Part shown: piece after piece, positions 2,352 to 55,579 of the stretch
Numbering within the stretch: the first letter of the stretch is position 1
How the letters are laid out: each line of letters begins with the position of its first letter
Source: Microbacterium esteraromaticum
GTDB lineage: Bacteria; Actinomycetota; Actinomycetes; Actinomycetales; Microbacteriaceae
Length of the DNA stretch: 64,000 bases
Assembly (NCBI RefSeq): GCF_017303215.1
Contig: NZ_JAEMWU010000001.1
Coordinates: 930,001-994,000 of the forward strand
Direction of reading: 5' to 3'
Position numbers and translations under genes: made by a program
The notes under the pieces: model-generated
The model's input: only the letters and a program-made list of their open reading frames with translations
Database searches by the model: none
What the model was told of the DNA's origin: nothing

Positions 2352-2735
2352 ATGACCACCCGGACCATCACCGCTGCCGACCTGCGCAGCACCATCGACG
2401 ACAACGACATCGTCCTGCTCGACTTCTGGGCGGCATGGTGCGGACCCTGCCGCGCCTTCGCCCCGGTGTTCGAGAAGGCATCGGATGCCAATCCCGACAT
2501 CGTGTTCGGAAAGATCGACACCGAGGCCGAGCAAGAGCTCGCCGCGGGATTCCAGATCCGCTCCATCCCGACGCTGATGGTGTTCCGCGGCGGCATCCTG
2601 GTCTTCTCGCAGCCCGGCGCCCTCAACGAGGCGCAGCTCGACCAGGTCGTCACCGCCGTGCGCGGGCTCGACATGGACGAGGTGCGCGCCGAGGTCGCGC
2701 GCCAACAGGCCGAGCAGCAGACCGCGAACGGCTGA
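2352..2735 (+). CDS. Thioredoxin
   Basis: A 127-residue thioredoxin-fold protein with the active site WAAWCGPCR near residue 35, and IRSIPTLMVF carrying the cis-proline. It reduces disulfides (or persulfides) in the cytoplasm; no signal peptide or membrane segment is seen. The C-terminus has an acidic and Gln-rich tail (VARQQAEQQTANG) beyond the usual fold. It lies 12 bp downstream of the Cys-rich gene under the CsoR-like promoter, which suggests a stress-induced thioredoxin rather than the housekeeping TrxA. A strong hairpin follows at 2754. Confidence 0.92.
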   Translation: MTTRTITAADLRSTIDDNDIVLLDFWAAWCGPCRAFAPVFEKASDANPDIVFGKIDTEAEQELAAGFQIRSIPTLMVFRGGILVFSQPGALNEAQLDQVVTAVRGLDMDEVRAEVARQQAEQQTANG

Positions 2736-2753
2736 GTCACGGGCATCCGACAC

Positions 2754-4566: not shown

Positions 4567-4605
4567 GCCGCGGCGCACTGTTGCGTGACACTGGTGTGCC
4601 GCGGC
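4567..4605 (+). terminator. Hairpin directly after metS
   Basis: GCCGCGGCGCAC and GTGTGCCGCGGC (4567-4578 and 4594-4605, one G-T pair) form a 12-bp stem with a 15-nt loop. It starts at the base after the metS stop and separates metPS from the GntR gene. Confidence 0.55.
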
Positions 4606-4627: not shown

Positions 4628-5275
4628 ATGGAGATCGAACGGACCACCGAGCTCGAGTCGGTGCGCGTGGCAACGGCGCTGCGTGACGACATCATGCTGG
4701 GCCGCCGGCTTCCCGGTGACCGTTTGATCGAACGCGACATCGCTGCTGAGCTGCAAGTGTCGCGCCTGCCGGTGCGCGAGGCGATCAGGCAGCTCGTGGC
4801 CGAGGGCGTCGTGGTGACCAGGCCGCGCACGTGGGCGGTCGTGCGGGAGTTCTCTGAGAAGGACCTGAAGGACTTCGCTGAGGTGCGCGAGGCCATGGAG
4901 ACACTGGCTTTCGTGCTGGCGGCAGAGCGCATCGACGGTGACGGTATCGCGCAGCTCGAAGCCCTGGTCGTGCACGAAGAGGCTTCGGCGATGTCCAACG
5001 ATGTGGACGCCGCCTACGACGCGGCGGCCGCCTTTCACATGACCGCCGTGCACCTGTCGGGCAACGCGATGCTGATCGAGTTGGCCGAGTCTCTGGTCAC
5101 CCGGTTGCGCTGGCTGTTCGGGCAGCACGAAGACCTGGGGCAGATGGCCAGCGCCCACCGGGTGATCCTCGAGGCGATGCGTGCCGGTGATGCCGAGGCC
5201 ATGCGCGTCTTGATCCCGGAGCACCTCGAACACGGACGCGCGGTGGCCGAAGACAGGCTGCGCCGAGGTCGGTGA
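4628..5275 (+). CDS. GntR-family transcriptional regulator (FCD/FadR subfamily)
   Basis: A 215-residue protein. The N-terminal winged helix-turn-helix spans about 10-72 (LRDDIMLGRRLPGDRL, RLPVREAIRQLVAEG). A helical FCD ligand domain follows (EVREAMETLAF ... FHMTAVHLSGN ... AHRVILEAMRAGDAEAM), with the Asp/His pattern that often binds a metal and a carboxylate. The ATG at 4628 is chosen over a TTG at 4616. It lies downstream of metPS behind a hairpin, so control of that importer is possible but not shown. Such regulators usually repress organic-acid or amino-acid catabolic genes. Confidence 0.85.
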   Translation: MEIERTTELESVRVATALRDDIMLGRRLPGDRLIERDIAAELQVSRLPVREAIRQLVAEGVVVTRPRTWAVVREFSEKDLKDFAEVREAMETLAFVLAAERIDGDGIAQLEALVVHEEASAMSNDVDAAYDAAAAFHMTAVHLSGNAMLIELAESLVTRLRWLFGQHEDLGQMASAHRVILEAMRAGDAEAMRVLIPEHLEHGRAVAEDRLRRGR

Positions 5276-45485: not shown

Positions 45486-45524
45486 GCGCGCGACGGACGT
45501 CGCGACCGCGGAGCTACCACAAAG

Positions 45525-45538
45525 TGATCGTTTGATCG
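45525..45538 (+). promoter_or_regulatory. Shared 14-mer operator, copy 1 (carbohydrate locus)
   Basis: TGATCG-TT-TGATCG, a direct repeat of a hexamer. It ends 8 bp before a -35 TTGACC (45547-45552), which has a -10 GATAGT (45570-45575) at 17-bp spacing. The identical 14-mer occurs at 47750-47763 before the sugar-binding protein gene. Location suggests control by the DeoR/LacI hybrid encoded between the two copies. Confidence 0.75.
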
Positions 45539-45609
45539 AATTCTGGTTGACCGAACAGTCACTCTCCGTGATAGTGGAGTGATCTTCTTCCGACCGCAGG
45601 AGCACTGTG

Positions 45610-45657
45610 ATGATTTTGACCTCGTCCGCCGCAACGTCGCGTGGGGCGAGCCGGTGA
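45610..45657 (+). CDS. Possible 15-residue leader peptide
   Basis: An ATG at 45610, with AGGAG at 45598-45602, opens a 15-codon frame (MILTSSAATSRGASR) ending in TGA at 45655-45657. That stop overlaps the GTG start of the dehydrogenase (45654) as GTGA. The dehydrogenase itself has a weak ribosome binding site, so the leader could couple its translation. It could also mark a misplaced dehydrogenase start. Confidence 0.45.
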   Translation: MILTSSAATSRGASR

Positions 45658-46640
45658 GCCTGCGCCGACCGCGCGCGGCACTGGCCATGACCCCCGATCT
45701 GCCCGAACCGCTGTTCGGTGCGGACTACGCAGAGCGCTTCGCGCCGGCGGTGGAGCTGCTCGGGTCTCTCGAAGACGTCGCCCCGGAGCAGTGGGAACAG
45801 ATCGAAGTGCTGATCGGATGCTGGGGCGCGCCCGAACTGGATGCCGACCTGCTGGCGCGCATGCCCCGGCTGCGCGGCATGGTCTACGCGGCGGGTTCGG
45901 TGCGCGGCATCATGACGTCCGAGGCCTACGAACGCGGAGTGCGGATCAGCTCGGGAGCCGACGCGAACGCGGTGCCGGTGGCGGAGTTCACGTTGGCCGC
46001 GATCCTGCTTGCCGGCAAGCGCGTTTTCGCCATCGACGAGGAGTACCGGCGCACGCAGCAGTACCGGCCGGCGAGCACCGCGCACGAGCGATGGGGCAAC
46101 TTCGGCACGCGGGTCGGCATCATCGGCGCCTCGCGCATCGGTCGGCGGGTGATCGAGTTGCTCGCGCCGTTCGACGTCGAGGTGCTCGTGTGGGACCCGA
46201 CCCTGCAGCATGACATCGACGGCGTGACCCGGGTCGGGCTCGACGAACTGCTGTCCACGTCGGACGTGGTGAGCCTGCACGCACCCTCGCTACCCGAGAC
46301 CCGGGGAATGCTGGGAGAGCGCGAGCTGGCCCTGCTGTCGGACGGCGCCACGCTGATCAACACCGCACGCGGCGCGCTGATCGACCAGGACGCTCTCGTG
46401 CGCGAGCTGAACGCCAGACGGATCCACGCCGTGATCGACGTCACCGAACCCGATGTGCTGCCCGTCGGGCATCCGCTGTTCTCGGCACCCAACCTCACCC
46501 TCACGCCGCACATCGCCGGCTCGCAGGGGTCTGAGCTGCGTCGACTCGGAGACGCGGCCTTTGACGAGCTGCAGAGATTCGCACGCGGCGAGATGTTTCG
46601 CCATGACGTGTCGGAGCCGCAGTTCGCGCTGCTGGCCTGA
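45654..46640 (+). CDS. D-2-hydroxyacid dehydrogenase
   Basis: A 328-residue NAD(P)-dependent oxidoreductase. The nucleotide motif GIIGASRIGRRVIELL is in the middle; the catalytic Arg is in INTARGALID, and the His in LTPHIAGSQGSEL. The acid region is VTEPDVLPVGHPLF. It interconverts a 2-keto acid and a D-2-hydroxy acid. The start used is the GTG at 45654, giving a usual family length; the frame is open to 45579. It is the first gene of the carbohydrate locus after the 14-mer operator, so it may act on a sugar-acid intermediate. Confidence 0.88.
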   Translation: MSLRRPRAALAMTPDLPEPLFGADYAERFAPAVELLGSLEDVAPEQWEQIEVLIGCWGAPELDADLLARMPRLRGMVYAAGSVRGIMTSEAYERGVRISSGADANAVPVAEFTLAAILLAGKRVFAIDEEYRRTQQYRPASTAHERWGNFGTRVGIIGASRIGRRVIELLAPFDVEVLVWDPTLQHDIDGVTRVGLDELLSTSDVVSLHAPSLPETRGMLGERELALLSDGATLINTARGALIDQDALVRELNARRIHAVIDVTEPDVLPVGHPLFSAPNLTLTPHIAGSQGSELRRLGDAAFDELQRFARGEMFRHDVSEPQFALLA

Positions 46641-46673
46641 CGCGACGGAACCGCAGGTTGAGAAGGAGAAGTC

Positions 46674-47738
46674 ATGCGAGCGGCAGAGCGACGCTCGGCG
46701 ATCGAACGTGAGCTGAACCTGACCGGACGCGTCGACGTCGCGGTGCTGGCCAGACAGCTCACCGTCTCGCCGATCAGCATCCGACGCGACCTCAACGACC
46801 TCGTCGAGAAGGGGATCGCGCGCCGGGTGCATGGCGGGGCGATCGCCGCGCGGATGCCCTCCGCAAGCGGCCCGCAGATCGTGCGACGCCCGCCGCCCGC
46901 CCGCAGCGAGGGCGGGATCATCGGCCTGGTGGTGCCCTCATCGCACTATTACTACGCCGGGGTTCTGGAAGGCGTGAAAGCCGCGGCGGTCGAGGCGCGC
47001 GTGCGCGTGGCGCTGCTCGTCTCGGGGTACTCGCAGGAGCAGGAGCTGGCCCAGATCAAGCGGCTCGTCGATCGCGGAGTGACGTCTCTCATCGCCACAC
47101 CCGCCGTCATCCCCGAACGCGACCCGCGCACCTACGAGGCCCTGCGGGAGGTCGGTAGTCCGGTCGTGCTGCTCGAGCGGGACGGCGGCGATGACTTCGC
47201 CATGCTCGACTCGGTGCGCTCCGACCACGAGTTCGGAGCCAGGCTGGCGTTTCAGCAGCTCGCAGACGACGGGCACCGGTCGGTGGCGCTGGTGTCGGCC
47301 GAGCGCACGCCCACGGCCGGATGGCTGCGCGCCGGATTCGAGGCGAAGCGCGGCCTGTTCGATGGTGCGACCGAGCGGATGGCGATCCCCTCGGCTCCGG
47401 AGTACGCCCCGGAACTGCAGGAGAGCCTCGACACTGTGCTGGACCGCTTCGCACAGCTCGGCACGACCGGAGCGCTGGTGCACTCCGACCTCGCCGCCGT
47501 CGCGCTCGCGCAGCGCGCCCGCGAGCGCGGCATAGACGTCTCGGTCATCGCGTACGACGACGAGATCGCGGCGCTTGCCGACCCGCCCATGGATGCTGTC
47601 GCGCCGCGCAAGCATGAGGTCGGGCGGCTTGCGCTGATGACCGCGCTGGAGCGGGCGGGGCAGAGCGCGGAAGACGTGGTGCCGCGGCATGTGACGGTGC
47701 CGCCCGCGTTCGCGCTGCGGCGTGCGCAGGACGCGTAA
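46674..47738 (+). CDS. Hybrid transcriptional regulator: DeoR winged helix plus LacI-type sensor domain
   Basis: A 354-residue protein. Residues 1-60 are a DeoR-type winged helix (RRSAIERELNLTGRVDVAVLARQLTVSPISIRRDLNDLVEKG, then RRVHGGA). Residues about 80-350 are a periplasmic-binding-protein-like sensor as in LacI/GalR proteins (GLVVPSSHYYYAGVLEGVKAAA, DSVRSDHEFGARLAFQQLADDGH, GALVHSDLAAVAL, VIAYDDEIAALADPPM). It would bind a sugar-like ligand and control DNA binding. It lies between the two genes preceded by the same 14-mer, making that 14-mer its likely target. It follows the dehydrogenase gene by 33 bp. Confidence 0.9.
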   Translation: MRAAERRSAIERELNLTGRVDVAVLARQLTVSPISIRRDLNDLVEKGIARRVHGGAIAARMPSASGPQIVRRPPPARSEGGIIGLVVPSSHYYYAGVLEGVKAAAVEARVRVALLVSGYSQEQELAQIKRLVDRGVTSLIATPAVIPERDPRTYEALREVGSPVVLLERDGGDDFAMLDSVRSDHEFGARLAFQQLADDGHRSVALVSAERTPTAGWLRAGFEAKRGLFDGATERMAIPSAPEYAPELQESLDTVLDRFAQLGTTGALVHSDLAAVALAQRARERGIDVSVIAYDDEIAALADPPMDAVAPRKHEVGRLALMTALERAGQSAEDVVPRHVTVPPAFALRRAQDA

Positions 47739-47749
47739 CGACCAGCTTC

Positions 47750-47763
47750 TGATCGTTTGATCG
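47750..47763 (+). promoter_or_regulatory. Shared 14-mer operator, copy 2 (carbohydrate locus)
   Basis: TGATCG-TT-TGATCG, identical to copy 1. It ends 7 bp before a -35-like TTGAGT (47771-47776), which has a CATAGC -10 (47793-47798). Similarity to copy 1 extends downstream into a TGGTT word next to the -35. Confidence 0.75.
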
Positions 47764-47853
47764 TTATGGTTTGAGTCGTCCAATCGATCGGTCATAGCAT
47801 CGCGTCGACGGAGAGCCCTTTCCCACGGCTCGCCCCGGACCGAAGGAGTTCCT

Positions 47854-49248
47854 GTGCAGATCACCCCCACCACCCGTCGGCGGGCCACCGCCACCGCAGG
47901 GGCGCTCGTGCTGAGCGCAACCCTGCTGCTCACCAGCTGCGCGTCCACCGACGCGGCACCCGCGGATGCCGGCGAGCCGGTCGGCCCGTTCGGTGCTCCC
48001 TCGGCGCAGTCGATCGAGGTCTACGCGTTCGATGGCGGATACGGCACCGAGTACACCGACGCCGTGATCAAGGTCTACAACGAGCAGCTGCCTGACAGCG
48101 AGGTCGACCTCAAGTCAGTGCAGGAGATCTCGACGCAGCTGCAGCCGCGCTTCGTCGGCGGCAACCCGCCGGACCTGATCGACAACTCGGGCAAGCCGAT
48201 CGAGACCACGACGCTCGCTGACAGCGGCCAGCTTCTCGACCTGGGCGAGCTGCTCGAGGCGCCCTCGTGGGATGACCCTGACGTGACCGTCGGCGAGACC
48301 CTGACCCCCGGTGTCGTCGAGACCGGCACGTACGACGGAAAGCTGCTCGAGCTGCGCTACGTGAACACCGCCAAGGGCCTGTGGTACTCGCAGTCGCTGT
48401 TCGAGGAGCACGGCTGGGAGATCCCCACCACCTGGGACGCCTTCGTCGAGCTCGGTGAGCAGGCGAAGAACGAGGGCATCGCCCTGTTCGCCTACCCCGG
48501 ACAGGTCATCAGCTACCCCGCCGACGTGTTCATCACTCTGATCGGCAAGCAGGCGGGCATCGACGCGCTGCGCTCGCTCGACAACCTCGAGAGCGGTGCC
48601 TGGGAGTCGGATGTCGTCGTCGACGCGTTCGGAGCCCTCGCCGAGCTGCACGACAAGGACCTGATCCTGAAGGGCTCCGAGGCGCTGACGCACACCGAGG
48701 CGCAGACCGAGTTCGTCCGGGGTGAAGCACTGTTCTACCCGGCGGGCTCGTGGCTCGAGAACGAGATGAAGGGCGTCACGCCCGAGGGCTTCGACATGGC
48801 GATCACGCCGATCCCGCTGCTCGACGAGGCCACCGCAGCGCTCGGATTCGAGCAGTTGCAGGTCGCGCCCGGTGAGGCATTCATCATCCCCACCGAGGCG
48901 AAGAACCCCAAGGGGGCGATGGAGTACCTGCGGGCCATGCTCTCGAAGGAGGCCGCGTCGGAGTTCTCGCGCCTGACGGGCGCACCCACCGTCGTCAAGG
49001 GTTCGCTGGAAGGCGTCGACGTCACGCCGGCACTGCAGACGGTGACCGACGCGATCGAGGTCGGCGGCAACGCCGAGCTGCGTGTGTCGTTCCGTGGCTG
49101 GTACGAGCCGCTGCGCACCCAGTGGTTCACGACTCTCGGTGACGTGCTCGCTGGCCGGGTAAGCCCCGAAGAGGCCTCGCAGACGATGCAGCAGGCGGCC
49201 GACGAGATCGCCGCTGACGACAGCATCACGAAGTACACGAGGGACTGA
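47854..49248 (+). CDS. Sugar ABC transporter substrate-binding lipoprotein (NgcE-like)
   Basis: A 464-residue binding protein. Signal peptide with lipobox LTSC (Cys near residue 29), then VYAFDGGYGTEYTDAVIKVYNEQLPDSEVDL, FVGGNPPDLIDNSG, YVNTAKGLWYSQSLFEEHGWEIPTTWDAF and ALFYPAGSWLENEMK. The style is that of actinobacterial NgcE/family-1 sugar-binding proteins, some of which bind N-acetylglucosamine or chitobiose. Here the ligand is more likely a product of the fucosidase and lyase-like enzymes downstream. GTG start at 47854. First gene of the transporter unit behind operator copy 2. Confidence 0.9.
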   Translation: MQITPTTRRRATATAGALVLSATLLLTSCASTDAAPADAGEPVGPFGAPSAQSIEVYAFDGGYGTEYTDAVIKVYNEQLPDSEVDLKSVQEISTQLQPRFVGGNPPDLIDNSGKPIETTTLADSGQLLDLGELLEAPSWDDPDVTVGETLTPGVVETGTYDGKLLELRYVNTAKGLWYSQSLFEEHGWEIPTTWDAFVELGEQAKNEGIALFAYPGQVISYPADVFITLIGKQAGIDALRSLDNLESGAWESDVVVDAFGALAELHDKDLILKGSEALTHTEAQTEFVRGEALFYPAGSWLENEMKGVTPEGFDMAITPIPLLDEATAALGFEQLQVAPGEAFIIPTEAKNPKGAMEYLRAMLSKEAASEFSRLTGAPTVVKGSLEGVDVTPALQTVTDAIEVGGNAELRVSFRGWYEPLRTQWFTTLGDVLAGRVSPEEASQTMQQAADEIAADDSITKYTRD

Positions 49249-49255
49249 GCGCGCC

Positions 49256-50164
49256 ATGAAGCACGGCCGCACCAGATTCATCACCCTCTTTCTCGCAGCT
49301 CCGCTGGTCCTGTACGGGGTGTTCATCCTCTACCCGTACGTCCAAGGCGTGATCATCTCGTTCACGGACTGGAGCGGCTACTCGCGCGACCGGGAGTTCA
49401 TCGGCTTCGCGAACTACATCAAGCTGGCCGGCGATGATCGATTCTGGGCGGCCCTGTCGCACAACGCGATGTTCCTGCTCGTCCTCCCACCCGTCACGCT
49501 CGGTATCGCGCTGGTCTTCGCCGCGCTCACCAGCGTGGCGGGCGGGAAGGGCGGACGGGTCGGCCCGATCGCCGGCTCCGGCTGGTACCGGGCGATCTAC
49601 TTCTTCCCGAACATCCTGCCCATCGTGATGAGCCTGGTGCTCTGGCAGTTCGTGTTCAATCCTCGTATCGGCCTGCTCAACGGCTTTCTCGAAGCGGTCG
49701 GACTCGGGGCCTGGGCGCACGCCTGGCTCGGTGACCCGAACACCGCGCCGTGGGCGGTGCTGAGTGTGCTGGTGTGGGGGCAGATCGGCTTCTACTACGT
49801 GCTGTTCTCGGCATCGATCCAGGGCATCCCGCGCGAGTACTTCGAAGCCGCCCAGCTCGACGGCGTCGGCCGGTTCCGCATGTTCTTCACGATCACGCTG
49901 CCGATGATGCTGCAGACCGTGCAGGTCGCGTGGATCTACATCGGGATGTTCGCGCTCGACATGTTCGTCACCGTCGCGATTCTCACACCCGACGGTGGAC
50001 CTTCCGGCTCGACGGACGTCATCGCGACATACATGCAGCGGCTCGCGTTCAGCGGCGGTCGCTTCGGCTACAGCGCGACCATCGGCGTCGTGCTCACGGT
50101 GCTCACGCTGCTGTTCGCCTTCATCACCTTCCGTGTGACGCGCCGCGAGCGCGTCGAGTACTAG
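49256..50164 (+). CDS. Sugar ABC transporter permease (MalF/NgcF type)
   Basis: A 302-residue permease with six transmembrane segments. It begins with FITLFLAAPLVLYGVFILYPYVQGVIISFTDWSG, and the EAA loop is EYFEAAQLDGVGRFRMFFTITLPMMLQ. It forms the membrane channel with the next permease. Seven bases separate it from the binding protein gene and 8 bp from the next. No ATPase gene is in the locus, so a shared MsiK-type ATPase encoded elsewhere must power it, as in many actinobacterial sugar importers. Confidence 0.92.
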   Translation: MKHGRTRFITLFLAAPLVLYGVFILYPYVQGVIISFTDWSGYSRDREFIGFANYIKLAGDDRFWAALSHNAMFLLVLPPVTLGIALVFAALTSVAGGKGGRVGPIAGSGWYRAIYFFPNILPIVMSLVLWQFVFNPRIGLLNGFLEAVGLGAWAHAWLGDPNTAPWAVLSVLVWGQIGFYYVLFSASIQGIPREYFEAAQLDGVGRFRMFFTITLPMMLQTVQVAWIYIGMFALDMFVTVAILTPDGGPSGSTDVIATYMQRLAFSGGRFGYSATIGVVLTVLTLLFAFITFRVTRRERVEY

Positions 50165-50172
50165 GAGTCGAC

Positions 50173-51120
50173 GTGACCGCTCCGATCATGACCCGTCCCG
50201 AGGCTCCGTCGAAGGGCGCCTCGTCGCCGGCATCCGCTCCGGCTCCCGGTGCGGCGCTTCCGCGCAAGCGCCGCACCAACCCCTATTCGTGGCTGACCGA
50301 GTCGCTCGGCAAGGGCGTCGCGCATGTGTTCCTGATCGCGTGGGCGGTCATCGCGCTGTTCCCGATCCTGTGGGGTGTGTTCAGCTCGCTCAAGGCGAAT
50401 GACGAGATCTTCGCCTCGCCCTGGGCGATGCCCGAGGCGCTGCAGTGGGACAACTACGTGCGCGCCTGGAACGAGGCCGATATCGGCCGGTACTTCTGGA
50501 ACACGATCGTCGTGGTCGGCGGATCGCTGATCGTCACCATGGTGCTCGGCGCGATGGTCGCGTACGTGCTGGCACGCTTTCAATTCCGTCTGAACCGCCC
50601 GATCTTCTACCTGTTCATGGTCGGCATGATGTTCCCGATCTTCCTGGCGATCGTGCCGTTGTTCTTCGTCGTCAACGACCTCGGCCTGCTGGGCACGCAT
50701 CTCGGGCTGATTCTGGTTCTGTCGGCCTACGGGCTGCCGTTCACCGTGTTCTTCCTGGTCGGGTTCTTCGCGACGCTGCCCGAGTCGGTGGCCGAGGCAG
50801 CCCTGCTTGACGGATGCGGGCATGCCGAGACGTTCTTCCGGATCATGCTGCCGATGGCCAAGCCGGGGCTGGTGAGCGTCGGGATCTTCAACTTCCTCAA
50901 CCTGTGGAACAACTACCTGATCCCGCTCGTGCTCAACCCGGACCCCGAGAAGTACGTGCTCTCGCAGGGACTCGCATCCCTTGCCATCACTCAGGGCTAC
51001 GCCGCCGACTATGGCGCACTGTTCGCCGGTCTGGTCATCGCGATGCTGCCGGTGCTGGCCGCCTACCTCGCCTTCCACCGGCAGCTGCAGGGCGGCATCT
51101 CTCTCGGCGCGCTCAAGTGA
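50173..51120 (+). CDS. Sugar ABC transporter permease (MalG/NgcG type)
   Basis: A 315-residue permease. A 55-residue Pro/Ala-rich cytoplasmic start (RPEAPSKGASSPASAPAPG) precedes six transmembrane segments: VFLIAWAVIALFPILWGVFSSLK, TIVVVGGSLIVTMVLGAMVAYVLA, LFMVGMMFPIFLAIVPLFFVV and others. The EAA loop is ESVAEAALLDGCGHAETFFRIMLPMAKPGLVSV. GTG start at 50173, with AGGAG upstream. Partner of the preceding permease. Confidence 0.92.
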   Translation: MTAPIMTRPEAPSKGASSPASAPAPGAALPRKRRTNPYSWLTESLGKGVAHVFLIAWAVIALFPILWGVFSSLKANDEIFASPWAMPEALQWDNYVRAWNEADIGRYFWNTIVVVGGSLIVTMVLGAMVAYVLARFQFRLNRPIFYLFMVGMMFPIFLAIVPLFFVVNDLGLLGTHLGLILVLSAYGLPFTVFFLVGFFATLPESVAEAALLDGCGHAETFFRIMLPMAKPGLVSVGIFNFLNLWNNYLIPLVLNPDPEKYVLSQGLASLAITQGYAADYGALFAGLVIAMLPVLAAYLAFHRQLQGGISLGALK

Positions 51121-51174: not shown

Positions 51175-52458
51175 ATGACTGACACCGCCGATCGCACCGC
51201 GTGGTTCCGCCACGATCACTTCGGCATGTTCATCCACTACGGCACCTATTCGGTGCTGGGGCGGCAGGAGTGGGTGAAGCGTTTCGACCGCGTCCCCGAT
51301 GACGAGTACGTCCGGCTCGCCGACCATTTCGACCCCGACCTGTTCGACGCCGGTGAGATCGCCCGGCTGGCCAAAGCGGCCGGCCAGAGGTACGCCGTGC
51401 TGACAGCGAAGCACCACGAGGGCTTCTGCCTGTGGGACACGGCGACCACTGACTACTCGATCGGCACGACGCGGGGGCGCGACCTCGTGCGCGAGTACGT
51501 CGACGCGTTGCGTGCCGAGGGTCTGCGCGTCGGGCTGTACTTCTCGTTGCTGGACTGGCACCACCCCGACTACACGGTCGACTGGTCGCATCCGCTCGGC
51601 AACCGCGACGACATCGATGACCTCAACGCGAACCGCGATATGGACCGTTTCCGGGCCTACATGCGTGAGCAGCTGCGCGAGCTGCTGACCGACTACGGCA
51701 CGATCGACTACCTGTTCGTCGACTTCACGCAGCCCGGCCCTGTCGACGGTGTTCCCGGCAAGACGCCCGAGGACTGGGACGCCGAGGGGCTCATGGCAAT
51801 GTGCCGCGAGCTGCAACCCGAGATGATCATCAACGATCGGTTCGGCATCCCCGGCGACTTGGCCACCCCCGAGCAGTACCAGCCGGTCAAGCCGATCGAG
51901 GTCAACGGCGAGAAGGTGCTGTGGGAAGCGTGCCACACCATCAACGGTGCCTGGGGTTACGACCGCGAGAACACCGATGACAAAAGTCCCGAGCTGCTTG
52001 CGCGAATGCTGGCGCAGACCGTCTCGCTCGGCGGAAACCTGCTGCTCAACGTGGGTCCGACCGCGCGCGGTGAGGTACCCGAGGGACATGACGACATCTT
52101 GCTCGAAGTCGGGCGGTGGTTGCGCCGCAACGGCGGTGCGATCTACGGCGCCGGCCCTTCGGAGTTCGAATCGCCCTCGGGCGTCGTTTACACGCAGAAC
52201 GGCAACAAGCTGTTCGCGCACATCTTCGACTGGCCGTTCAAGACGCTGTACCTGCCGGGGCTGGCCGACCGGGTGACGTTCACTCGCCTGCTATCCGACG
52301 GCGCGGTCATCAACACGTACCCGATCGTCACCGACCCCGATCACGTCGGCGCGAGTCTGCACCCGGCCGCGCCGGAACCGGGCACGCTTGTGCTCTCCTT
52401 GCCGGTCGTCCGTCCCAAGGAACTGCTTCCGGTCATCGAGTTGACGCTCACCGACTGA
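51175..52458 (+). CDS. Alpha-L-fucosidase (GH29)
   Basis: A 427-residue glycoside hydrolase. GH29 landmarks: WFRHDHFGMFIHYGTYSVLGRQEWV, RYAVLTAKHHEGFCLWDT, LRVGLYFSLLDWHHPDY, and DYLFVDFTQPG in place of the common WFDG nucleophile strand. The C-terminal part has GGNLLLNVGPTARGEVPEGH and a small beta domain. It removes alpha-linked L-fucose by a retaining mechanism. No signal peptide is seen, so it works on imported oligosaccharides. It lies 54 bp after the permease gene in the same unit. Confidence 0.92.
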   Translation: MTDTADRTAWFRHDHFGMFIHYGTYSVLGRQEWVKRFDRVPDDEYVRLADHFDPDLFDAGEIARLAKAAGQRYAVLTAKHHEGFCLWDTATTDYSIGTTRGRDLVREYVDALRAEGLRVGLYFSLLDWHHPDYTVDWSHPLGNRDDIDDLNANRDMDRFRAYMREQLRELLTDYGTIDYLFVDFTQPGPVDGVPGKTPEDWDAEGLMAMCRELQPEMIINDRFGIPGDLATPEQYQPVKPIEVNGEKVLWEACHTINGAWGYDRENTDDKSPELLARMLAQTVSLGGNLLLNVGPTARGEVPEGHDDILLEVGRWLRRNGGAIYGAGPSEFESPSGVVYTQNGNKLFAHIFDWPFKTLYLPGLADRVTFTRLLSDGAVINTYPIVTDPDHVGASLHPAAPEPGTLVLSLPVVRPKELLPVIELTLTD

Positions 52459-52498
52459 AGCAGAACACTCCATCGATCTACACAACGAGGTGAAGAGC

Positions 52499-55400
52499 AT
52501 GAGAAAACACAGGACCCGCTGGGCCAGTGCGGCGATCGTCGCCGCACTCCTGGTCTCACCGATCTCGGCGGCCGCCGTCGAGGTTGGTGAGGACGCCGTC
52601 GCGAACGGCTCGTTCGAACAATTCACGGGGGCGAACCCCGACAGCTGGGGGCGCTGGAACGCAGCCGGAACGGGGGAGGTGACACGGGTTCCTGGCATCG
52701 CCGGGCAGAACGCCGTGCAGATCACGACCAACACGACTTCGTCGCGCCTGGCGTTGGTGCAGGACGTGCCGGTGACCGCCGGGCTGTACCGATTGGACTT
52801 CCAGGTGAAGCGTACGGGCATGTCGGGCAACGGCACCGCGGGCATCCGCATCAACGTCGCGGGGGCGACGTCGGCTCCGTTCATCGGCGGAAACACCGAC
52901 ACCGACGGCTGGACGCCCGCTTCCGCATGGGTGCGGGTGCCCGCGGGGTCGACCAGCGCGCGCGTGCACCTGTTCAACGACATGGTGAGGGGCACGATGA
53001 CGGTCGACGACGTGCGCTTCTCCAGGGCGGATGCCGACGACTTCGTCCTCGCATCGATCACGGCATCCGGCGACATCGGGCTCGATTGGGATGTGACGGA
53101 TGCGCGAGGCGCCGACCACTACGAGATCATGCGCGAGACGGTGGGGTCCGAAGCGGAGGCGCAGCTGGTGCGCCGAGTGCCGGCCGTTCTCACCGAAGCG
53201 ACCGACCAGGACTGGAACCCCGGCGAGAGCTACGTGTACACGGTGATCGCGCGCGACAGCGGTGGGGCGGAGGTGTTCCGCACGACGGAGGCGACGATCA
53301 CCGCGCCGGACGAGAGCAACATTCTGACCAGCTCGTTGGCCGCAATCGAGGCTGAGGCAGATGTGCATCTCAGTTGGGCCGCTGCGCGCGATGTCAAGGG
53401 AGCGCTGTCGCTCGTGGCATCTGACGAATCCCTCGCGGGTGGAGATCTCTCTGACGCGACGACGGTCGCCACCGGCGTTGAGGCGGTGGGATCGGCCCGA
53501 GCCCAGACACCGGCGCGGTACTTCGCGCTCGTCGCGGACGGCGAGGTCATCGCCACCGCAGCACGGGGAGCGCAGTCGCATCCACGCATCATGTTCACCG
53601 ATGAGGTGCGCGACAAGATCGCGCGCATCACAGCGGTTCCCGGCACCCCGCAGGAACAGCTCGAGGTGATCACCGCGCGGGTCGACGGAGGTGTCGGGAC
53701 CTCGGGAACCTCGGCACATCGCTACGCCCGCGAGGCCGCCTTCCTCTACCAGGTGACGGGTCAGCAACGGTACGCGGACCTGACATTCGAGGCGTTCGAG
53801 ATCGCCGCGGATGAGACGCCATTCGGCGCCAGTCAGCCACTGGATACCGCGAACCCCGCTTCGCAGCTGGCGCTCGCCTACGACTGGGCGTACAACGGTT
53901 GGAGCAACACCCAGCGGACGTTCGCGCAGGAGTACTTCGAACGCGCTGCGGTACTGCTCGAACTCGCCGATCACCCCAACATGGTGTGGGACGACAAGGC
54001 GAGCAACTGGGTCGGCGTCACGCGCGGCGCAGAACTTGCGCAGCATCTCGCCGTGCGCGGTGACGGTGACTACGGCATGCGTGATGCGCGGATCGCGCGT
54101 CTGCTCGACCAGCTCTCGCGTCACGCGGAACAGGGCTACTCAGAGTCCGGCTGGTATCAAGAGGGGCTCGACTACCTCGACTACGACAACATGATCGCCA
54201 CCACTGGCGTACTTGGGTCGTTCGATGCGGGTATCGATGCCATCAAGGAGGCATGGTACGAGCCGCAGACCGCGAGTCTGCTGCTGCATGCCGCATCGCT
54301 CCGGCAGGGGACGGGATCATCTCTGCAGTGGGGCGTGGGGACCGGCGGCCAGCCGGCATGGCCGCTGTACTTCGACCGCGCGGCCGAAGATGGTGAGCTC
54401 GACCGCGTCGCCGCGATGTTCGAGCGCACGCAGGGGCATCTCGCCGAGAACGGCTGGTACTCGCCGGGGTTCGGGCTCTACACCTTCGCCTACTGGCCGG
54501 AGGAGAGCCCGCCGAGTCTTCGGAGCGATGAGGTGCTTCCCGCGCTGTACGACGCCGAGTCCGGCGTCGCGATGTTCCGCAACCGGATCCAGGATGCCGA
54601 TGATGTGCTCATTGGGCTGCACAACCGCAACCACGACCACCTCGGCTGGAGCGGCCTCGACACCTTCGGGCTCTCGATCATCGGCGGTGACACGCTGTGG
54701 GCGGGGCAACCCGGCAAGAGCGCGGCCGATGCGGCCAAGTACTCGCGGGTGTTCGTCGACAATGAGATCGCACAGGAGGTCGGGCACGGTCGTACCGAGG
54801 CATCCCGTTCGTACAACGCGCAGGGTGGCGGCTACGTGCTGTTCGACGGTGCAGGCAACCTGGGGGTCGCGACGGCCACGCGTGAGGCCGCTGTCGACAT
54901 GACGCCCCGCGCGACAGCCGACACCATCATGGTGCTCTCGGACTCGTTCTCCGACGACGAGGCCCGTCGTTGGACGTGGCAGCTGGCGCCGCAAGCCGGG
55001 GTGACGGCTGAGATCGCCGATTCGGTCGACGGTGCGCGCCAGATCGTCCTGCGCAATGGTGACGCCTGGATGCAGCTCACGCTGCTTGATGCCGATGGTG
55101 CCGAGATCACGTACGCCGATGGAGTGCTGCGGATCCAGCGCGCCGGGAAGACCGCCGACTTCGACATCGTCGCGGCGTTCGGTACAGGCGCGGACCTGCC
55201 CAGGGTGGAGGTGATCGGAACCGTCATCGCCATCGACGGGTTCGTCGCGGATGCCAGTGACCTCGCCGACTTCGAGCCGGTGTCGGCGGCCAATGTGTGG
55301 GACGCATCAGCCTCGTACCGCGCTGGTGATCGAGTCAGCTTCGAAGGAAGCCTGTTCGAGGCGATACGGCCGACGAGCGCCGATGAACCGGGCGAGAAGC

Positions 55401-55579
55401 CGCGCGGTCCGTGGCAGCAGATCCGGGCGATCGGGGATACGTCGATCTGGACTCCGACAGGAGAGTTCCAGCGCGGCGACGTGGTCCTGCACGAGGGGCA
55501 GACCTACACGGCGATGCGCAAGAACCGCGGCTCCGAACCGGGCCGCTCCAACGACCGGGCCTGGACGCTGACCGACTGA
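52499..55579 (+). CDS. Large secreted modular polysaccharide-active protein (lyase-like) with two C-terminal CBM5/12-type modules
   Basis: A 1026-residue secreted protein (ATG 52499 after ACGAGGTG). Signal peptide to about 26 (cleavage near SAAAVE). Residues about 27-180 are a jelly-roll-like carbohydrate-binding module (VANGSFEQFTGANPDSWGRWNAAGTG). Two fibronectin-III-like domains run to about 355. Residues about 360-700 are a helical toroid typical of heparinase II/III and alginate lyases (HPRIMFTDEVRDKIARI, NPASQLALAYDWAYNGWS, NWVGVTRGAELAQHLAVRGDGDYG, SGWYQEGLDYLDYDNM). A beta-rich half follows. The end has two CBM5/12 chitin/cellulose-type modules (VWDASASYRAGDRVSFEGSLFEA; WTPTGEFQRGDVVLHEGQTYTA). 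The exact polysaccharide is unknown. Confidence 0.85.
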   Translation: MRKHRTRWASAAIVAALLVSPISAAAVEVGEDAVANGSFEQFTGANPDSWGRWNAAGTGEVTRVPGIAGQNAVQITTNTTSSRLALVQDVPVTAGLYRLDFQVKRTGMSGNGTAGIRINVAGATSAPFIGGNTDTDGWTPASAWVRVPAGSTSARVHLFNDMVRGTMTVDDVRFSRADADDFVLASITASGDIGLDWDVTDARGADHYEIMRETVGSEAEAQLVRRVPAVLTEATDQDWNPGESYVYTVIARDSGGAEVFRTTEATITAPDESNILTSSLAAIEAEADVHLSWAAARDVKGALSLVASDESLAGGDLSDATTVATGVEAVGSARAQTPARYFALVADGEVIATAARGAQSHPRIMFTDEVRDKIARITAVPGTPQEQLEVITARVDGGVGTSGTSAHRYAREAAFLYQVTGQQRYADLTFEAFEIAADETPFGASQPLDTANPASQLALAYDWAYNGWSNTQRTFAQEYFERAAVLLELADHPNMVWDDKASNWVGVTRGAELAQHLAVRGDGDYGMRDARIARLLDQLSRHAEQGYSESGWYQEGLDYLDYDNMIATTGVLGSFDAGIDAIKEAWYEPQTASLLLHAASLRQGTGSSLQWGVGTGGQPAWPLYFDRAAEDGELDRVAAMFERTQGHLAENGWYSPGFGLYTFAYWPEESPPSLRSDEVLPALYDAESGVAMFRNRIQDADDVLIGLHNRNHDHLGWSGLDTFGLSIIGGDTLWAGQPGKSAADAAKYSRVFVDNEIAQEVGHGRTEASRSYNAQGGGYVLFDGAGNLGVATATREAAVDMTPRATADTIMVLSDSFSDDEARRWTWQLAPQAGVTAEIADSVDGARQIVLRNGDAWMQLTLLDADGAEITYADGVLRIQRAGKTADFDIVAAFGTGADLPRVEVIGTVIAIDGFVADASDLADFEPVSAANVWDASASYRAGDRVSFEGSLFEAIRPTSADEPGEKPRGPWQQIRAIGDTSIWTPTGEFQRGDVVLHEGQTYTAMRKNRGSEPGRSNDRAWTLTD

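Follow-up and report, generated by a model that had tools for sequence, protein, structure and literature searches.

Passages of PMC3870299 describe DeoR-type binding motifs as two imperfect direct repeats with a period of 10-11 bp, and the operators of the DeoR-family regulator RhaR treated there combine imperfect direct repeats with a DeoR-type helix-turn-helix (HTH), as does the locus described here. LacI/GalR sugar repressors such as CcpA and RbsR have in common with the regulator of this locus the sensor domain and a role in sugar uptake loci. In passages of PMC8579813 on Caldicellulosiruptor, upstream AraC sites are read as activator sites. Searching the open-licence PMC literature, we found no description of a hybrid joining a DeoR-type HTH to a LacI-type sensor, or of its operator. 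Here we analyzed the surroundings of such a hybrid in a 64,000-nucleotide stretch of the Microbacterium esteraromaticum genome (hereafter the window).

The 14-mer TGATCGTTTGATCG (TGATCG-TT-TGATCG) is present as an exact match at 45525-45538 (site A) and at 47750-47763 (site B), both on the forward strand and both outside annotated genes, as a preliminary description of this DNA had reported; its placing of the copies 8 and 7 bp before -35-like hexamers was likewise correct. Promoter A consists of a -35-like TTGACC (45547-45552), 8 bp past site A, and, after a spacer of 17, a -10-like GATAGT (45570-45575) that was chosen by eye and is weak, not of the form TANNNT. Promoter B has TTGAGT (47771-47776), 7 bp past site B, and, after a spacer of 18, a fair -10, TAGCAT (47795-47800; TANNNT at offset 31). 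Downstream of promoter A, a leader ORF of 15 residues, MILTSSAATSRGASR (45610-45657), follows a good ribosome-binding site (AGGAG, 45598-45602), and its stop overlaps the start of a gene for a D-isomer specific 2-hydroxyacid dehydrogenase (45654-46640, start inferred; PF02826, 157 bits from the upstream start at 45579). The leader frame is kept, with one residue altered, in a second genome of the species (G071), where the dehydrogenase start codon is ATG instead of GTG and the overlap ATGA instead of GTGA; an ORF ending in this way on the start of the next gene suggests translational coupling. The regulator gene follows (46674-47738). The preliminary description had rightly recognized a DeoR/LacI hybrid between the two copies but had taken it for the only gene there, whereas the dehydrogenase lies there too; since both genes stand between the sites, site A probably controls both. 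Beyond promoter B, the forward strand encodes an ABC transporter sugar-binding lipoprotein of the NgcE type (47854-49248; TIGR03851, 502.8 bits against a cut-off of 399.65), two ABC permeases (49256-50164, PF00528, 48.1 bits; 50173-51120, start inferred, PF00528, 70.5 bits in a run from 50176), an alpha-L-fucosidase (51175-52458; PF01120, 269.5 bits) and a 1029-aa CBM5/12 protein (52490-55579; PF02839, 45.7 bits), whose signal-peptide-like start would fit secretion.

To judge how unusual the repeat is, we considered recurrence in the window and in the genome. Recurrence alone is common, as 234 different 14-mers repeat on the forward strand of the window, among which TGATCGTTTGATCG is the most AT-rich, and near-matches with up to three mismatches are uninformative (six in the window, 5.7 expected). 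Across the 3,063,803 bases of the genome, however, where 0.025 (Markov order 1) or 0.046 (order 2) exact copies would be expected, the only two are those on either side of the hybrid gene, so that the unrelated copies sought by the preliminary description did not turn up. Two copies with one mismatch exist, each within a reading frame: one at window position 4717, in an apparent GntR-type gene, and one at C1:1148666, close to the end of an ORF. The degenerate form TGWNCRTTTGANCG gains a single extra match in the genome, that at window position 4717. Read as a direct repeat, the two hexamers of the 14-mer agree at 6/6 positions; read by eye as an inverted repeat, it agrees in GATC-N4-GATC only and is no full palindrome, and the direct repeat proposed earlier is thus the better description. 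Its half-sites are 8 bp apart, in place of the 10-11 bp period of DeoR-type direct repeats, and neither window site has a hexamer at -10 or -11.

The regulator encoded between the sites carries an N-terminal DeoR-type HTH (PF08220, 46.2 bits against a cut-off of 21), the only HTH model matched at E <= 0.001 being HTH_DeoR, and a LacI-type sensor (PF13377, 65.1 bits against a cut-off of 26.5) whose nearest PDB chains are CcpA and RbsR. Neither a LacI-type HTH among its profile matches nor the DeoR C-terminal sensor PF00455 among its Pfam matches was found, the latter being present in the genome's other, classical DeoR protein (C1:489154). A DeoR-type HTH was matched three times in the genome, in the classical protein, in the hybrid and at C1:333188, whose frame reads by sequence, not by profile, as another HTH family and shows no LacI-type sensor match to the hybrid at E <= 0.01. 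The protein between the sites is therefore the sole DeoR-HTH/LacI-sensor hybrid found in this genome. A different hybrid at C1:90167-91123 (L195 1281-2657) joins the same type of sensor (PF13377) to a GntR HTH (PF00392), not a DeoR HTH, and is followed by an oxidoreductase-like gene.

A scan of the genome_contigs collection with the regulator as query found no relative. Among 149 genomes of the genus, 145 gave some match to the regulator at E <= 0.001, many of them through one domain only; at E <= 1e-40, matches came from 40 of the 398 family genomes. Identity reaches 99% in G071 and otherwise at most 42-43% across these 149 and 398 genomes, so true orthologues are rare. Between G071 and the window there are 117 differences in 6000 bp and none in 45488-45649, which holds site A, or in 47660-47942; this conservation says little because the two genomes are nearly identical. 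With the sugar-binding protein as query (E <= 1e-80), 198 genomes returned the same species and two 38% matches only, and therefore no further orthologous loci in those 198.

A more distant comparison came from the 297 genomes of the order, which contain one regulator orthologue, 58-61% identical and from another family (G816). In the recognition region the two proteins are almost identical (VSPISIRRDLN and VSPVSIRRDLN). Between the orthologue's gene and the divergent gene stands TGATCGTTTGAACG, followed after 7 bp by TTGACA; it shares 13 of 14 bases with the window 14-mer, has the spacing to the -35 of promoter B and, like the window sites, has by eye no hexamer at -10 or -11. Conservation ahead of orthologous loci, which the preliminary description had called for, is thus seen in the one distant orthologue found. 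The divergent gene behind this site encodes a PL8 polysaccharide lyase with no detectable similarity to the 1029-aa protein of the window. At the same locus, a second 8-bp pair, TGATCGGTTGACCG (L231 8152-8165, reverse strand), faces the regulator's own gene, and autoregulation through it is possible.

We then compared the regions beside more distant hybrids. In one of these relative searches, matches lacking an HTH or scoring below 90 bits were left out. Among the regions listed beside 55 hybrids, we saw like sites just ahead of TTGACA-type -35 elements. Once aligned, the relatives' sites are hexamers TGWNCG arranged in tandem with a spacing of 10-11 bp, frequently followed by a third hexamer 8 bp on. 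Of the 11 non-redundant sites left after 7 of 18 non-own sites were dropped (regulators >=70% identical), 7 carry TGNNCG at -10, 2 carry it at -11 and 5 carry it at +8, whereas other offsets average 0.04. The 8-bp pair of the window corresponds to the proximal hexamer together with the optional third hexamer of the relatives' operator, both of them perfect. The identical 14-mer, followed after 8 bp by TTGACT, also precedes a sugar-binding-protein gene beside a hybrid from a different genus (L170/L172); in L172 all three hexamers are TGATCG, even though its regulator is just 32% identical. We also tried an inverted-repeat reading of the relatives' sites, which fits L140 and L152 (GTTC-N4-GAAC) but fails with the G- and A-type half-sites of L088, L134 and L118 and is therefore kept as a minor possibility only.

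The direction of the sites was assessed with the core TGWNCRNTTG, counted by zone and strand around 111 of 113 regulators, the two own-species ones being left out. Downstream of the regulator gene, the core occurs 20 times on the forward strand and once on the reverse strand in 18.9 kb; upstream, it occurs 0 times on the forward and 7 times on the reverse strand. By comparison, there are 2 within regulator genes (119 kb) and 13 elsewhere (705 kb), and density falls from 1.06 per kb just downstream on the forward strand to about 0.01 per kb elsewhere. Thus, 27 of 28 cores are directed away from the regulator (14/15 for regulators below 70% identity), as are 46 of 50 tandems at 10-11 bp (19/22) and 8 of 9 pairs at 8 bp (5/5), while tandems away from the regulator gene are about evenly split between strands (26 vs 22). 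The same tendency was observed in an order-level set of 26 loci unused in pattern finding, with 14/17 tandems and 4/4 cores pointing outward, or 10/13 and 3/3 for the 19 regulators below 70% identity, although four rows (L209, L212, L213 and L218) are nearly one sequence. Since every locus was oriented by its regulator gene, direction is not an artefact of fetching, and these counts indicate that the sites mostly point from the regulator towards the neighboring gene. Most regulators show neither pattern, an adjacent core being found for 22 of 111 and a tandem for 29 of 111. Because some sites overlap and two regulators share a locus in some cases, the counts are not all independent; moreover, the patterns were drawn up once the likeness to the window site was known, and zone limits and promoter classes were set post hoc.

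The distance between site and promoter is often fixed as well. Of the 46 oriented tandems, 12 have TTG exactly 7-8 bp past the 14-bp frame, compared with 1 of 52 other tandems within the same loci (Fisher p 0.0005), and TANNNT stands 20-21 bp past the frame in 8/46 compared with 1/52 (Fisher p 0.012); no oriented tandem (0/46) has both and 26/46 have neither. The two distance classes thus define two promoter layouts whose -10 elements are about 10 bp, or one turn, apart. The -35 layout comprises both window sites and 10 of 18 non-own sites, none of the 10 with TANNNT at the -10 distance, and the TANNNT layout comprises 7 of 18, none with TTG at 7-8 bp. One turn further out again, the pair TGATCGATTGATCG of L142 (about 4567-4580) lies 18 bp ahead of TTGACA; an inverted CGATCAATCG comes after this pair. 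Of 18 oriented rows in the order-level set, 3 (L211 and, twice, L214) have TTG at 7-8 bp, as does the orthologue, and the distance rule therefore replicates weakly.

Searches by exact pattern and without any pattern gave a more mixed picture. Among the 149 genus genomes, TGWTCGTTTGAWCG is present in 2, both of M. esteraromaticum; in the family, 18 of the 398 genomes contain it, with 19 places in all, 2 of them the window's own; the backwards control pattern gave 2 matches in the family genomes. Four of the 17 non-own places adjoin a hybrid (L165, L166, L167 and L170), as judged with 40 of 95 regulators as queries, and 13 do not, so chance copies exist in some family genomes. De novo motif search downstream of the 95 regulators found no such motif. 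Applied to 16 relatives (3 of 19 dropped as near-duplicates, some related ones staying in), it placed the window sites in two of four settings, at ranks 1 and 4 (tied) among some 128,000 positions with width 20 on the forward strand and at ranks 2 and 4 with width 14 on both strands, with shuffled controls run from 40 starts as against 150. The other two settings yielded either a ribosome-binding motif or a different register, and the window sites were not in their top 8.

Together, the orthologue's site and the oriented, fixed-distance sites beside relatives make the 14-mer, in its two-hexamer 8-bp form, very probably the operator of the DeoR/LacI hybrid encoded between its copies. The copies themselves, their rarity, position, direction and distance, and the counterpart at the orthologue are direct observations.

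The genes behind the sites offer a view of what the regulator may sense. In those relatives whose downstream frame was read, the genes behind the sites resemble, by sequence, those of sugar-binding lipoproteins (L088, L134, L135, L097, L103, L105, L096 and L142, among others) or of a 2-hydroxyacid dehydrogenase (L136, L070 and L152, with L140 added by the dehydrogenase search), the same two types that follow window sites B and A, respectively. More generally, the 2-hydroxyacid dehydrogenase travels with hybrid regulators; relatives of it (E <= 1e-25) were found in 44 of 122 loci (L073-L194; five own-species, three duplicates). In the window, the NgcE-type binding protein points, by model TIGR03851, to N-acetylglucosamine or diacetylchitobiose, and over some 120-150 residues the 1029-aa protein weakly matches PL35 chondroitinase/DUF4962 chains (8khw, E 4e-6; 9o3q, E 3.7e-5). 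Standing beside a fucosidase, it possibly marks a locus for an acidic or fucosylated glycosaminoglycan. The PL8 family, to which the lyase behind the orthologue's site belongs, takes in hyaluronate, chondroitin and xanthan lyases; the last are also placed there in passages of PMC12772297. Fucose is a possible ligand, but this lyase and transporter evidence points no less to an acidic or amino-sugar polysaccharide as the source of the ligand, and a uronic-acid or amino-sugar oligosaccharide is no less probable than a fucosylated sugar.

Binding by the hybrid, activation, the nature of the ligand and the transcription start sites we infer as follows. The regulator would recognize head-to-tail TGATCG half-sites 8 bp apart, the 14-mer being its predicted operator, which by the inferred start sites would span roughly -57 to -44 in each promoter. 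A sugar released from a polysaccharide by the operon's own degradation would switch the regulator, which, when bound, would aid RNA polymerase at two weak promoters, promoter A serving the dehydrogenase-regulator unit and promoter B the unit of ABC transporter, fucosidase and lyase-like protein. We regard this proposal as a whole, operator and sugar-switched activation together, as somewhat probable from the DNA at hand. Position, direction and the weakness of the promoter cores speak for activation rather than blocking, since an asymmetric operator keeps one direction and set distances upstream of incomplete promoters. Several considerations count against it: the fixed geometry could in part have been inherited with the module, promoter B does have a fair -10, and published DeoR/LacI sugar regulators are mostly read as repressors.

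The hybrid might instead be a repressor at the 14-mer, blocking the alpha subunits of polymerase or touching the -35 until a sugar ligand releases it. This we consider possible but doubtful. In passages of PMC8579813, all 12 LacI and DeoR sugar regulators of Caldicellulosiruptor bescii are inferred to be repressors, some -35 hexamers beside the sites are the consensus TTGACA, and the orthologue's second pair faces the regulator's own gene. However, the repressor sites in those passages are located within the 5' UTR or overlap elements of the promoter, whereas here, wherever a -35 is seen, the sites precede it with constant spacing and a single orientation, neither of which simple blocking needs.

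The preliminary description had suggested activation or a looped repressor rather than simple blocking. Fixed position and direction do argue beyond blocking; the looped alternative fares worse, although tetramers can form among LacI relatives. A tetramer that bridges the 2.2 kb between sites A and B and silences both promoters is very unlikely: there are two identical sites, and in 12 of 29 tandem-bearing regulators oriented sites flank the gene on either side (L136, L070, L140 and L152 among them), but 17 of 29 have tandem sites on one side only, within limited flank lengths, so that looping is not needed in relatives; nor does looping need a fixed direction relative to the promoter. Binding by another regulator of the genome seems more improbable still. 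The classical DeoR protein and the GntR-HTH/LacI hybrid are both present, and a site-like sequence lies about 4 kb from the classical DeoR gene, yet the exact copies flank the DeoR/LacI hybrid only and the same class of site adjoins hybrids in other genera. The site-like sequence, TGATTGTTTGAGCG at C1:485223 (L202 about 2724-2737, reverse strand; two mismatches), stands ahead of a SIS-domain gene and is possibly an operator of the classical protein. A chance repeat can practically be dismissed, as the recurring 14-mers of the window and the family matches away from hybrids are outweighed by the small number of copies expected per genome, by the orthologue's counterpart and by the oriented enrichment in relatives.

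The activator reading might extend beyond this locus. A large clade of hybrids in Microbacteriaceae-type actinobacteria and their relatives may act as ligand-switched activators on directional head-to-tail operators placed at one of a few positions whole helical turns apart, a LacI-type sensor having been turned to activation by an exchange of HTH; we regard this suggestion, taken as a whole, as about as likely as not. If so, a hybrid family that adjoins sugar transporters in many genomes of the bacterial family would gain an operator code that can be tested, activation would be predicted where DeoR and LacI relatives usually count as repressors, and many sugar loci still lacking an assignment could be given predicted regulons and substrates.

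Several known systems resemble the locus in part. According to passages of PMC12772297, Microbacterium sp. XT11 and Paenarthrobacter ilicis each have a xanthan utilization region with a PL8 lyase, an ABC sugar transporter and a hydroxyacid dehydrogenase, but with other enzymes than the window locus; LacI-family regulators are listed for the P. ilicis region, and the likeness is one of gene mix. LacI/GalR repressors share the sensor and the setting, but the window regulator has no LacI-type HTH match, its operator is not a full palindrome and its site lies upstream of the -35. RhaR is treated as a DeoR-family protein in passages of PMC3870299 that do not mention a LacI-type sensor, whereas the window regulator has one; the 10-11 bp period of RhaR sites is common to the sites of the relatives, and the window operator differs from it in its 8-bp spacing. 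Direct-repeat operators of DeoR-type regulators are thus already known, and the two-hexamer, 8-bp form predicted for this hybrid would be a new variant of them.
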